Assembly: GCA_021162935.1 (NCBI GenBank)
Contig: JAGGXR010000066.1
Location: 1 to 38,299, forward strand
Source of the DNA: Deltaproteobacteria bacterium
Lineage (GTDB): Bacteria > Myxococcota_A > Polyangia > HGW-17 > SLPX01
DNA length: 38,299 bases
Reading direction: 5' to 3'
A model generated the notes under the pieces. That model did no database searches and was not told the origin of the DNA. It was given only the letters and a program-made list of their open reading frames with translations. Positions within the stretch are counted from its first letter, which is position 1; each line of letters starts with the position of its first letter. This document shows, one piece after another, positions 457-5,749 of this stretch. Both the position numbers and the translations under genes were made by a program.

Positions 457-1758
457 CTACTGGCAGGACACGCTCAACGTATAGTCTCCCCATGCAGAAA
501 CGTAATAGAACTCCACCACGAAGTAGTAGGTCCAGCCGGCGTGGGCGTTGAAGGTCACGTCTTCGGCGGTGCTGGTGCCATTGGAAATACCGATACAGAG
601 CTTTGGATGACAGGCGCCGCCCAGAACGATCAGGTCCAGGTCATCGCTCGAATCTGAAATCTGCAGGTGCACGGTCACCGACTGGTCCGCCGTGACCTGG
701 AATTGATAAATGGTGTCTCGCTCCGTATAGCTCAACCCTGAGCAGTTGTACCCAGAAACGTGATCCGAGCTGGATTCGGAGTCTGAATCCGACCCACCGC
801 AGGCGATGGTCTTCTGTTGGGTGCATTGGTTCTCCCAGGTGCAGGTCGCGCTGCATCCGTCGCCGGCCGTGGTGTTCCCGTCGTCACACTCTTCGGTGCC
901 CGCCACGGTTCCGTCTCCGCACACCGAGGCATCGGTGCAGGCGCTCTCATCCAGGGTGCAGTCATCCTTGCAGGTCAGGGTGCCGCCGTCGTGACCCAAT
1001 CCCTCACAGGTCTGATTGCCCAGATCCGTGCCATCACACGACTCCGTCCCTTCCTTGATACCGTTGCCACAATCGAAACAGCCAGACTCGTCGAAGATAC
1101 AGTCGTCTCCGCAGGCCAGGGTTCCGCCGTCGTGGCTCAGTCCCTCACAGGTTTGGGAGCCCAGATCCGTGCCATCACACGACTCCGTCCCTTCCTTGAC
1201 GCCGTTGCCACAGCCGAAGCATCCAGTCGTGTCGAAGGTGCAATCGTCTCCGCAGGCCAGGGTGCCGCCGTCGAATCCCTGGGACGCACAGGTCTCTTCG
1301 CCCAGATCCGTGCTGTCACACGACTCTCCCTGGTCGATCTTCGCGTTGCCGCAGCCCTCCACCATGGAACAGCCGGACGTGTCGAAGGTACAGTTCCCCG
1401 TGCAGGCCAGGGTGCCCGTCACGAACCCCTCATCCTTGCAGGACTTGCCGAACAGGTCCGTGCCATCGCAGCTCTCCTGGCCCTCGACCACGCCGTTGCC
1501 GCAGGACGGACCCTGACTGCATCCGCTCGTGTCCAGGATGCAATCAGCCGAGCAGGCGAGGACCCCGGTCACAAACCCCTGGTCCTGACAGGAATGACCG
1601 CCCAAATCCGGCCCATCACAGGCCTCTCCTTCTTCCAGCACAGCGTTGCCACATTTGGGTGGCTGCGGCTCGACGGTTGTCGGGCTCTGAGCGCAACCGC
1701 CGATCAGCGCAACCGAAACGAGACAAAAAAACACCGACGTCCGCCGTGCCCCATTCAT
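457..1758 (-). CDS. Lipoprotein with CGNG/CDG Cys-rich repeats and C-terminal PPC-like domain
   Basis: Predicted surface lipoprotein of 433 residues. I start at the ATG at 1758 because it opens a signal peptide (MNGARRTS, hydrophobic core, lipobox IGGC); the open frame extends 36 codons further upstream without one. The body holds five repeats of about 47-50 residues, each opening CGN and continuing ESCDGTDL...C...GGTLAC..DC.FD.SGC, then one shorter unit CGDGT...EECDDGN...GDGCSATC of the type called DUF4215 or Myxococcus Cys-rich repeat. The last 120 residues (TIYQFQVTADQSVTVHLQ...DLDLIVL...YYFVVEFY) resemble a pre-peptidase C-terminal (PPC) beta-sandwich. It is probably extracellular, with adhesion or polysaccharide contact as possible roles; function is not shown by the sequence. 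It follows the EnvC-like gene on the same strand after a 222-base gap. Confidence 0.85.
   Translation of the reverse strand: MNGARRTSVFFCLVSVALIGGCAQSPTTVEPQPPKCGNAVLEEGEACDGPDLGGHSCQDQGFVTGVLACSADCILDTSGCSQGPSCGNGVVEGQESCDGTDLFGKSCKDEGFVTGTLACTGNCTFDTSGCSMVEGCGNAKIDQGESCDSTDLGEETCASQGFDGGTLACGDDCTFDTTGCFGCGNGVKEGTESCDGTDLGSQTCEGLSHDGGTLACGDDCIFDESGCFDCGNGIKEGTESCDGTDLGNQTCEGLGHDGGTLTCKDDCTLDESACTDASVCGDGTVAGTEECDDGNTTAGDGCSATCTWENQCTQQKTIACGGSDSDSESSSDHVSGYNCSGLSYTERDTIYQFQVTADQSVTVHLQISDSSDDLDLIVLGGACHPKLCIGISNGTSTAEDVTFNAHAGWTYYFVVEFYYVSAWGDYTLSVSCQ
971..1252 (-). repeat. Two 141-bp direct repeats inside the Cys-rich lipoprotein gene
   Basis: Bases 971-1111 and 1112-1252 align with a step of exactly 141 bases (47 codons) and are nearly identical over long stretches, for example the 30-odd bases after 1020 and after 1161. 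A third, more diverged unit follows at about 1253. They encode successive CGNG...GGTLACGDDC modules. Confidence 0.8.
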
Positions 1759-1980
1759 CACAGCCCCTTCCCATATGCATTCGCGAGGCCGTGACCAGTT
1801 TCCCCGGGCCTTCCACGACCAGCGACCTCCGCGAAACGAACCGCGCGCAAAGAGCGCTCCATCCAACCCGAACCGGGCAATACTTTATCACAACCGGCCC
1901 CGCTCCTGGTATCCTTTTGTACTTTGACTTTCCGTTCGGGCCCCGTCGAAGACTCTTTCGAGAAACGCCGCGCTACCGCG

Positions 1981-3555
1981 CTACTTTGCAGCCGACGCTA
2001 CGGAAAACAACTCTTGAGGAATAACACCCGGCACCTTGGGGCGCTGGATCTCGATCCCACGGTGTCGCCCCCCGTGGAACCACTGCACCGGATCGAGGGG
2101 CACTGCCCCCCTGCGCAGCTCGTAGTAGCAGGTCAAAGGCTCCTTGCGATCCCGGCCTGGACGTCCTCGCACGGCCCCCAGGACGGCGCCCCGCCGAATC
2201 CGCTGTCCGATTCGCACCTCAATCCGGGCCAAATACCCGACCACGGACAGAAAACCTTCTCCATGGTCGATCATCACGACATGACCGAATCCGGGAACCG
2301 GCCCGGTGAACCGCACCGTACCCGCCGCCGGCGCCCGAGCTTTCCATCCGCGTTCAGCACCGATGAGCACACCGTGGCTCCGTCTGCCCGCCCTGGCCAG
2401 ACGACGGTCCATGCGCGGCCGAATGACGATCCCAGGCACGGGGCGGGCCAGAAGTCCCTTGCGTTCTTCGAAACTGCGCCCCTCGTCCCGAACCTTCTCC
2501 TGCAGGTCCGCCACGGCACGGGCAAGGCGCCTGGCAGTCGCGTCCCAGACCTCGCGACTACGGTGCCGATGTTCCTTCCGCCTGAGTAGATCGCGAAACT
2601 CCTGGTTGAGCAGGGCGAGGCGTGCCTGGAGATGATCCCGCATGGCATCGAGTTGTGCCTCTCTGGTGATGGCCTGACGCAGGGTCGCCTTGGTGTCGTT
2701 CTGACGCTTCTCCAGATCCGCCAGGACCAATTTCTCCGACTGCAGTTCCTTCATCCGATGCGCGATGAGCAACGCCATCTCCACCCGACCGTCACCAGGA
2801 ACTTGGGCGCGCCGGTGGTCCATCAACGGAACGGACTGCCAGCCGTCCACGAGCTTGTACAGAGCCCGATACCAACGCGCAATCTCAGCTCGACGCCGCT
2901 CGATTCGCTTGCGCTGGGCTTTGACTCTGACCCGTCCCACGTCGATGATTTCCAGGGCATGGTGCCGCAAGCCCCTGGCCGCCCAGAGTTCTGACACAGT
3001 CCCTTTGATTTCCTTTTCGGTCTCGCCGATGAGCCCAAGAACCGCAAGCTCGGCTCGCAGATAATCCTGAACCACCGCATCCGGCCCTGGATGCGGCAAG
3101 GATCGACGTAAATCGTCCTCCTGGCTCCCCGCCTCTGTCTTGAAACCCGAGCCGCGACCAGCGCCCTGCCGGGCCGCCTGCCGGCCCGACGCGCCGAGGT
3201 CTGGTCCGACCGGTGCACGACCCGAGGCTGCTCGACCAGGATTCGCCCGTCCCCGGCCAAAGGCTTCCACCCGGCCCGTCTGTCCATTGGTCCGGCGATG
3301 GAACCCTCCCGCCCGTATCGCCCCATCGACGGATCCGAGGGCGCCCGATCCACGAACGCGGTCCCTGTGCAGTCCAGTTCGAAGCGACCAGGACGTTGAG
3401 GCGGACGCAGCTTGCCACGAGCCGCTTCTTGCACCAAAACCCGACGCTGCATCCATGTCGCCCAAGTGCTTCCAATCGAAGTCGGAAGACAAAAGGAACA
3501 GCACGAACAGCATGAGCCCGGCTGCGACGAGCCACAACAGTGAACGACGAAACAC
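1981..3555 (-). CDS. EnvC-like degenerate LytM (M23) coiled-coil protein
   Basis: About 524 residues. The N-terminus is a signal/anchor (FRRSLLWLVAAGLMLFVLFLL), then a charged linker, a long helical coiled-coil region (roughly residues 180-390, rich in R/E/L/A) and a C-terminal LytM/M23 fold. The metal ligands of active M23 peptidases are missing: the HxxxD position reads SHGVLIG and the HxH position reads CYYELRRG. This is the pattern of EnvC, which does not cut peptidoglycan but activates amidases under control of FtsEX. The gene lies directly downstream of ftsX, as expected for that partner. I place the start at the GTG at 3555, five bases after GGAGG; an ATG at 3585 is the alternative. 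Identity as an amidase activator is inferred from the family and context. Confidence 0.82.
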   Translation of the reverse strand: MFRRSLLWLVAAGLMLFVLFLLSSDFDWKHLGDMDAASGFGARSGSWQAASASTSWSLRTGLHRDRVRGSGALGSVDGAIRAGGFHRRTNGQTGRVEAFGRGRANPGRAASGRAPVGPDLGASGRQAARQGAGRGSGFKTEAGSQEDDLRRSLPHPGPDAVVQDYLRAELAVLGLIGETEKEIKGTVSELWAARGLRHHALEIIDVGRVRVKAQRKRIERRRAEIARWYRALYKLVDGWQSVPLMDHRRAQVPGDGRVEMALLIAHRMKELQSEKLVLADLEKRQNDTKATLRQAITREAQLDAMRDHLQARLALLNQEFRDLLRRKEHRHRSREVWDATARRLARAVADLQEKVRDEGRSFEERKGLLARPVPGIVIRPRMDRRLARAGRRSHGVLIGAERGWKARAPAAGTVRFTGPVPGFGHVVMIDHGEGFLSVVGYLARIEVRIGQRIRRGAVLGAVRGRPGRDRKEPLTCYYELRRGAVPLDPVQWFHGGRHRGIEIQRPKVPGVIPQELFSVASAAK

Positions 3556-3752
3556 GACATCCTCCGTGAGCGCAACCCCTGTCATGAGGCCGGCGCAAGA
3601 CCCACTCAAAAACGCCCCACCCTCAAAAGGGCGAGGCCGCCAGACAGACCAGACACGATCGATCCGGACGAAACGCCGACCCTGGACAGGTGGCAAATCC
3701 CGGCCCGGACCAAACCGTCACGTTCGGCCGATCGCTGAACCGCGGCGCGGCT

Positions 3753-4649
3753 TCATGACCGTCCGACCCGCACCAGGGTGAGGCGTCCTCCGATGAGCGC
3801 GGCCAACACCGTGGCGCCGATGGCCAAAGCGACCGTGGACCAGGGTACCAGGGACGAAAACCCAACCTTCAACCAGGGACCGGCCAATTCGGCCAGCTTG
3901 GGCGTCATCATGACATGAAGGCCGTACAGACCGGCAAGGCCGAGCAGGCCGCCAGCCAGGCTGCTCCACAGCGCTTCCAACAGGACCGGCGCCCTGGTGG
4001 TCCAGCCCGGAGCCCCCAACACTTTGAGGATCTCCGCATCCTGCCGAGCCGCCACGTGGCCGAGCCGTACGGTCATGGCCACCACGTATCCACACACCAA
4101 AAGGGTCAACACGACCACCACCCGGGCCACGTAGGTCAGCACCCCGGCAAGGCGATCCATCTTCTTGTGCCACTCCTGGACTGTGCGCACCTCTTCGATG
4201 CCATCCAGGGTCCGGCCCAGGGTCGTCAGCCGTTGCTGCGCCCCGATCATGACCGACCGCGCCCCACGCAACCGCACTTCGAAGGACTCGGGCACCCATT
4301 GAGGCTCCACGCCGACCAGCAGGGAGGCATCGGCCTGGAGATTCTTCTTGAGTCGATTCAAGGCGGCCCCATGGGAAAGATACCGGACGGAACGGGATCC
4401 GGGAATGCGCTCCAACGCCTCGCGAATCCTCTGGCGACCGGCATCGGTAACGTTGGGCTGTAGGTACACCGCGACCACGGCGCCCCTCGCCCAGGACTCC
4501 GCCCGCCTCGTGACCTGACGGCTGGCGATCCAGATGGTGCCAGCCAGGACGAGTGAGAGGGCGATGCTGCCCACGGCCAGTAGAATCGAAATCGGTCTGC
4601 GAATGAGACCTCGAAACGACTCCACCAGACAGAACGCAAACAGTCCCAA
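3753..4649 (-). CDS. ftsX: Cell division ABC transporter permease FtsX
   Basis: 298 residues, the usual FtsX length. There is one membrane helix near residues 20-42, an extracytoplasmic domain of about 130 residues with the typical VYLQPNVTDAGRQ...LERIPG...SFEVRLR segment, then three C-terminal helices (about 170-195, 215-240, 265-290) with the RQDAEILKVLGAPGW coupling region. FtsX transmits the state of FtsE across the inner membrane to a periplasmic LytM-type activator at the septum. The start is a TTG at 4649, seven bases after AAAGGAG. ftsE lies 119 bases upstream and the EnvC-like gene downstream on the same strand. Confidence 0.93.
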   Translation of the reverse strand: MGLFAFCLVESFRGLIRRPISILLAVGSIALSLVLAGTIWIASRQVTRRAESWARGAVVAVYLQPNVTDAGRQRIREALERIPGSRSVRYLSHGAALNRLKKNLQADASLLVGVEPQWVPESFEVRLRGARSVMIGAQQRLTTLGRTLDGIEEVRTVQEWHKKMDRLAGVLTYVARVVVVLTLLVCGYVVAMTVRLGHVAARQDAEILKVLGAPGWTTRAPVLLEALWSSLAGGLLGLAGLYGLHVMMTPKLAELAGPWLKVGFSSLVPWSTVALAIGATVLAALIGGRLTLVRVGRS

Positions 4650-4768: not shown

Positions 4769-5536
4769 CTACAGGGCCACGACACCCGAAACCGAAGAGT
4801 CGTCACCCCGGCCCATAGCGGATCGCTGCACATGGCCGCCGTCCGACCACTCGACGGACAGATGCCCGTCCCGCAACTCGGCCACGTCGTCCGCAGGAAA
4901 GGCCCCAGAAGCCAACATCTCACCCGAGGCAACCAGGACCGTGGCACCGGAACGAACCGTTCTGGCCAAAAGATCCAACACATATAAGGAATGTCTCGTG
5001 TCGAGATGCGCCGTAGGCTCGTCGGCAAGAATCAGGTCTGGCTCCGCCACGAGTGCCCGGGCAATCACGGCAAGCTGCCGCTCACTCGCCGCCAACTCGC
5101 CACACCGCACCTTGAGGTGCGCCTCCTCCAATCCAACCAAGCGGCAGGCCTCTGCAGCCGCAGCCGCAGCCCGACTCGGCCACCAGCCCTTGATGCGGAG
5201 GGGCAGGGCCACGTTGTCGACCACGGTACGGTCCTCGCTGAGTTGCAGATCCCCAAACACGTATCCAATGGAGCGACGCAGACGCTGGAGGCCACGTCGG
5301 CCCAGTCGCAACACGTTTCTGCCTTGCACCACGATCTGCCCCGAATCCGGGCGTTCCAACCCATAGAGCAGATTCAACAAGGTGGTCTTCCCCGATCCTG
5401 ATTCGCCCCGGATCAGAAATGCTGCCCCACCGGGCACCTCCAGGGCGACATCGCGAAGGGTCCAGTGACGGGCTCGATACCTCTTGCCAAGATTCGAAAC
5501 CCACACAGCGGTCCCTGTTCGCATCTTCGTACCCAT
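4769..5536 (-). CDS. ftsE: FtsE-type ABC ATPase with degenerate Q-loop, signature and H-loop
   Basis: 255 residues from the ATG at 5536, preceded by AAGGTG; an upstream GTG at 5596 is possible but less likely. FtsE is the cytoplasmic ATPase of the FtsEX divisome complex. Walker A is intact (GESGSGKTT, 44-52), as is Walker B (LILADEPT, 168-175), and the stretch DRTVVDNVALPL matches FtsE closely. Three other nucleotide-site motifs are altered. The Q-loop VFQD reads VFGD (Gly95), the signature LSGGE/Q reads LAASE (148-152), and the H-loop ATHD reads ASGE (Gly205, no His). ATP may bind with little or no hydrolysis. The neighbours ftsX and the EnvC-like gene support the assignment. Confidence 0.9.
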   Translation of the reverse strand: MGTKMRTGTAVWVSNLGKRYRARHWTLRDVALEVPGGAAFLIRGESGSGKTTLLNLLYGLERPDSGQIVVQGRNVLRLGRRGLQRLRRSIGYVFGDLQLSEDRTVVDNVALPLRIKGWWPSRAAAAAAEACRLVGLEEAHLKVRCGELAASERQLAVIARALVAEPDLILADEPTAHLDTRHSLYVLDLLARTVRSGATVLVASGEMLASGAFPADDVAELRDGHLSVEWSDGGHVQRSAMGRGDDSSVSGVVAL

Positions 5537-5749
5537 ACCACACCTTTTCTTCGGCAGCACAATCGGAACTTCCCGAAAAACACCGACTTGCGACACTCGT
5601 CACAGGTGGGGCGCATCGGAGCCGCCCCTCTTTCAAGCTGTACCACAGAGCCGTCAAGGCGGCAAAAAACGCCGCTCTTCATGCGCCCTGCTTCCGTTCC
5701 TGAAAAAACCCTGCTATGACGAACCGAAACGCAAAGGAGGAAACGCATT

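Follow-up and report, generated by a model that had tools for sequence, protein, structure and literature searches.

FtsEX has been described as an ATP-powered mechanotransmitter whose function in E. coli reportedly depends critically on ATP hydrolysis. FtsE works catalytically as a dimer. Each of its two ATP sites is built from the Walker A and B motifs, the Q-loop and the switch His of one subunit together with the signature of the other (PMC11627006). In E. coli, the binding of ATP is thought to drive the activation of EnvC and its hydrolysis to reset the complex (PMC12505981), and a non-hydrolysing FtsE mutant, thought to be locked in the ATP-bound form, blocks septal synthesis through FtsA (PMC7343993). 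Engineered ATPase mutants of FtsE were found in the part of the literature that our search covered, and a description of a naturally degenerate FtsE was not.

The gene presented here lies in a window of 38,299 nucleotides (the whole stretch of DNA that was analysed, contig JAGGXR010000066.1 of a deltaproteobacterial genome). Its product has in common with FtsE of E. coli and P. aeruginosa (FtsEX-EnvC, type VII ABC; PDB 8hd0, 8i6o) the fold, the FtsX partner, an EnvC-like M23 protein in the operon and the Walker A and B motifs. It differs from them in replacing the Q-loop Gln, the Ser-Gly-Gly of the signature, the Gly-Asn of the D-loop and the H-loop His, and such a sequence would not be expected to support hydrolysis. 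The engineered ATPase-dead E. coli variants D162N and E163Q give an FtsEX without ATP hydrolysis, as the window protein probably does, but they retain the signature, Q-loop and H-loop, whereas the lesions in the window are natural, lie in the motifs of dimer closure and affect the resident copy. Asymmetric ABC transporters such as Pdr5, ABCB2/B3 and CFTR are a well-known case of degenerate ATP sites and carry substitutions in the same motifs; there, one site of the pair is degenerate while its counterpart still hydrolyses (PMC7756269), whereas a homodimer of the window protein would have both sites degenerate. Finally, EnvC and DipM have degenerate LytM domains, being, like the partner encoded downstream in the window, pseudo-enzymes that activate other hydrolases. 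That known degeneracy concerns the periplasmic activator, whereas what is new here is a degenerate ATPase half.

Identity and motifs of the window FtsE

The three genes follow one another on the minus strand in the order ftsE, ftsX and M23 gene (Table 1), and descent, gene order and predicted fold all identify the first of them as an FtsE. Its best NCBIfam model is FtsE TIGR02673 (174 bits, E 2.5e-51; LolD, 134 bits). This score lies under the curated cut-off of 264.85 bits, as do those of the FtsX-linked canonical FtsE of genomes G002, G005, G026 and G297 (248-263 bits). In a tree of 118 nucleotide-binding domains (NBDs) from which the motif columns had been removed, all FtsX-linked FtsE, degenerate ones and that of the window included, formed one clade against the LolD/MacB-type domains (support 100); the window protein has a long terminal branch there, and the nearest available FtsE is about 42% identical to it. 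The AlphaFold2 model (mean pLDDT 76, most core blocks at 90 or above, ends disordered) has as its best PDB fold match the E. coli FtsE of FtsEX-EnvC, 8hd0, and the best sequence matches among solved structures are FtsE chains.

Table 1. Coordinates of the ftsE locus and of the nucleotide-site motifs of FtsE
Feature	Position	Strand	Remarks
ftsE	4769..5536	minus	255 aa, ATG at 5536; FtsE orthologue with degenerate catalytic motifs
Walker A, GESGSGKTT	5381..5407	minus	residues 44-52; intact
Q-loop position	5252..5254	minus	Gln to Gly95; from alignment
Signature, LSGGE to LAASE	5081..5095	minus	residues 148-152; from alignment
Walker B, LILADE	5018..5035	minus	residues 168-173, catalytic Glu173; intact
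D-loop, TGNLD to TAHLD	5000..5014	minus	residues 175-179; from alignment
H-loop position	4922..4924	minus	His to Gly205; from alignment
ftsX	3753..4649	minus	298 aa; FtsX extracellular domain and permease domain; sole FtsX in genome
EnvC-like M23/LytM protein	1981..3696	minus	571 aa; extended N-terminal region; lacks zinc-ligand residues (activator type)

The motifs were read from an alignment with E. coli FtsE and relatives that is free of gaps at all of them. In the Q-loop stretch, E. coli IFQDHHLL is replaced by VFGDLQLS, the signature stretch LSGGEQQR has become LAASERQL, and ATHD at the H-loop reads ASGE; the Walker B stretch LILADEPT, with its catalytic Glu, is preserved. Changes have affected 11 of 31 motif positions that are conserved at 90% or more; elsewhere in the protein, 6 of 24 conserved positions have changed. 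A preliminary description of this DNA had proposed an FtsE homologue with three degenerate motifs (Gly95, LAASE and Gly205) and intact Walker motifs, and the alignment bears this out, the residue numbering included; we add that the gene is on the minus strand. Displacement of the motifs, as opposed to their loss, had been named there as a reason to abandon the proposal and is ruled out by the gap-free alignment together with the AlphaFold2 model. The same was said of close relatives with identical residues and normal ATPase activity, and the nearest members of the order turned out to be canonical. Since the Q-loop, signature and H-loop depart from the canonical forms of an ATP-hydrolysing NBD, the protein is filed here as FtsE by descent and not as an ATP-hydrolysing FtsE. 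Its open frame extends beyond the ATG at 5536 to a GTG at 5596.

The preliminary description was also right about the partners of the gene. The neighbouring FtsX matches PF18075 (47.6 bits, E 2.7e-12) and PF02687 (41.7 bits), both above the gathering cut-offs, as well as TIGR00439 (E 2.1e-40). Its apparent start is a TTG at 4649, but the open frame runs upstream towards the end of ftsE, and the true start is therefore uncertain. The degenerate LytM/EnvC-like partner matches PF01551 (E 2.3e-15, above cut-off) and the EnvC model NF008644 (E 2.3e-11); because the equivalog cut-off of the latter is not reached (43 of 270 bits), we name the protein only EnvC-like. On inspection of the sequence, the zinc-ligand motif is missing from its M23 domain. 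A lipoprotein-like ORF (457-1866, minus strand) lies 3' of the M23 gene and contains several Cys-rich repeats of the form CGNGVxEGxESCDGTDLG..., one of them being CGDGTVAGTEECDDGNTTAGDGCSATC.

Degenerate FtsE in related families

FtsE proteins adjoining FtsX were gathered from the order, class and phylum, and 164 of them could be fully scored for six residues: the Walker A Lys, the Q-loop Gln, the Ser and second Gly of the signature (Thr being accepted at the Ser position), the catalytic Glu and the H-loop His. All six were present in 132 proteins. The 32 non-canonical ones comprise the window protein, every one of the 22 sampled from family f15, all seven of f7, that of genome G020 (family f12) and those of genus g7 of the window's own order; this proportion is no estimate of the overall frequency of degenerate FtsE, because the sampling of f15 and f7 was targeted, once the first f15 cases had appeared. 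Loss of the H-loop His is found in 31 of the 32, and in G020 this residue is Asn. Genus g7 has Glu for the Q-loop Gln; in its loci L047 and L048, where ftsE stands beside ftsX, the Q-loop reads VHETD and the signature LSAGQ, and the His is kept. Most f15 proteins have lost the Walker A Lys (19/22) and the catalytic Glu (20/22). Chance variation of the core residues within the window's order is ruled out as an explanation, with both f2 members and most f4 members keeping them.

Divergence at other motif positions is seen in further f4 proteins, with odd motifs around an intact core (ISGGEKRK, LDEPVSGLD). The FtsE of locus L156 (genome G417, family f59) has a very long branch, 5 of 31 motif positions changed and all core residues intact. 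In the f15 loci that we inspected, the operon of ftsE, ftsX, M23 and S41 peptidase genes is intact, and the M23 domains are without zinc ligands, as in EnvC. A CtpA-like S41 peptidase gene regularly follows ftsE-ftsX-M23 in these loci (L202, 7700-8965; L214, 7963-8943; and others), and then comes a gene for an FHA-type protein. A short EnvC coiled coil was considered as a correlate of dead FtsE: the distance from the end of FtsX to the LytM motif is 171-219 aa in f15, about 170-180 aa in f7 and 477 aa in the window. It was dropped because several canonical families overlap in this measure and the window has the longest distance of all.

The origins of these losses were tested on a concatenated tree of FtsE (motifs removed) and FtsX. 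In this tree the window groups with f2 and f4, which belong to its own order (support 100); f12 and f15 form a clade beside the canonical family f21. A single clade of window, f7, f12 and f15 was rejected (AU p = 0.010), and one of f7, f12 and f15 was not (AU p = 0.53). A degenerate clade uniting the window with f7 and f15 is thus ruled out by FtsE and FtsX together but not by FtsE alone, for which it gives AU p = 0.40. The motif loss of the window is therefore independent of those in the f7 and f15 families, and the tests imply at least two strong origins of loss, with a further, mild one in f4. A gradation of loss is suggested within f12/f15, from LSAGE in f21, through Asn in place of His in f12 and in genus g38 of f15, to near-total loss in most other f15 genera.

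This recurrence bears on two less favourable readings of the window gene. According to the first, its altered motifs are an artefact of assembly or contamination, which the fragmented state of the genome might suggest (168 contigs, 3% contamination). However, like losses occur in independent genomes of other families, both FtsE and FtsX of the window group with their own order, and in-frame substitutions centred on motifs are atypical of sequencing error, so that we regard an artefact as exceedingly unlikely. According to the second, FtsEX is no longer important in this lineage, and the gene is decaying neutrally on its way to loss. FtsX was undetectable in one genome of the order (G003, 93% complete), which indicates that FtsEX can be absent from the order, and of 178 high-quality genomes from the class, 23 gave no FtsX match at the threshold used. 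The absence from G003, a fairly complete genome, makes decay towards loss conceivable, and the long terminal branch of the window FtsE is in keeping with it. Against decay stand the open frame of 255 unbroken codons, a codon-position GC of 0.69/0.50/0.70, which is an ordinary coding profile, the intact FtsX and M23 genes, and the retention of 18 of the 24 conserved non-motif residues. Whole families, moreover, have retained the degenerate gene, and it evolves there under purifying selection: pairwise dN/dS ranges from 0.13 to 0.38 for degenerate pairs of f7 and f15, and is 0.03 for the f4 genus g7 pair, with 0.11-0.14 in two canonical pairs. Constraint in the degenerate lineages is somewhat relaxed but clear, as measured on these relatives rather than on the window copy. 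The window gene thus has neither a broken frame nor, judging by its relatives, the lack of constraint of a pseudogene, and neutral decay appears improbable.

A probable FtsEX without an ATP cycle

The preliminary description had also suggested that a second, intact FtsE may be encoded elsewhere. In the window genome (5.13 Mb, 97% complete) this finds no support: there is one FtsX_ECD gene, that of the window, and no second FtsE was found, the next-best matches to the FtsE model being LolD-, MacB- and DevA-like proteins. Five control genomes that carry a canonical FtsE gave 248-272 bits for the gene linked to FtsX, versus at most 219 bits for other ABC subunits, and none of the nine genomes with degenerate FtsE had a match to the FtsE model above 219 bits. 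One may still imagine that a different, intact ATPase, such as one of LolD or MacB type, drives FtsX, with the window FtsE surviving as a vestige or a regulatory subunit, and many intact type VII NBDs, including the LolD-, MacB- and DevA-like ones, are indeed available in the genome. However, none of them scores like FtsE, none that we saw adjoins an ftsX, and degenerate FtsE stays beside FtsX, under purifying selection in the relatives; such a replacement is very unlikely. Loss of FtsA as an explanation is ruled out, since FtsA was found in 16 of 16 genomes tested, including those with degenerate FtsE. Amidase_3 enzymes are present in the window genome.

With a single gene for a protein that acts as a homodimer, both ATP sites would be degenerate. 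We consider it probable that the only FtsE of this genome descends from a normal ancestor and no longer has a working ATP site, and that FtsEX is kept as a scaffold that does not cycle. Loss of the ATPase, an open dimer and a scaffold function are all inferred here from sequence. Both sites of the dimer would be without the Gln that senses the gamma-phosphate, the signature loop that closes on ATP and the switch His, so that the protein may bind nucleotide through its Walker A and B motifs but would not form a hydrolysis-competent ATP sandwich. FtsE would then cap FtsX in the cytoplasm and help to place it at the Z-ring, and FtsX would keep the EnvC-like LytM activator positioned above the septum. 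This positioning, or some other control, would activate the amidases in place of ATP-driven strokes. A dimer that has lost its signature and Q-loop should stay open, not ATP-locked, and we propose that it therefore escapes the FtsA-dependent septal block seen with ATP-locked E. coli mutants. A weak ATPase activity is possible, given an intact catalytic Glu and the preserved Walker A and B motifs.

An alternative is a switch in which the binding and release of ATP, and not its hydrolysis, move FtsX and EnvC, with the reset perhaps provided by nucleotide exchange. The intact Walker A and Walker B motifs, with Glu173, are in line with it, and so is the attribution of the activating step in E. coli to ATP binding, hydrolysis serving to reset (PMC12505981). 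However, the parts lost in the window are the signature and the Q-loop, which are needed for ATP-driven dimer closure, and the more advanced f15 proteins have mostly lost the Walker A Lys and the catalytic Glu as well. The end state in f15 should therefore be independent of nucleotide, and it is the loss of the Lys that favours a nucleotide-independent role. Signalling by ATP binding alone, as suggested in the preliminary description, is thus conceivable for the window protein but does not hold in general, and even for the window we find it doubtful.

The non-cycling scaffold suggests that the FtsEX complex can work as a fixed structure rather than as an ATP-driven switch. We lean towards the wider view that an FtsEX with no ATP cycle is a stable state that has evolved repeatedly, reached independently by two or more lineages within a single class. 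FtsE would there be a conserved pseudo-ATPase with the structural role of capping FtsX, and control of the septal amidases would come from something else than ATP hydrolysis in the cytoplasm. Where FtsE, FtsX and the EnvC-like protein have stayed together without the catalytic residues, one can test directly which functions of FtsEX belong to the nucleotide cycle and which to the scaffold alone, and the related genomes offer a graded natural experiment that runs from a single change of His to Asn through to the near-total loss of the core residues.
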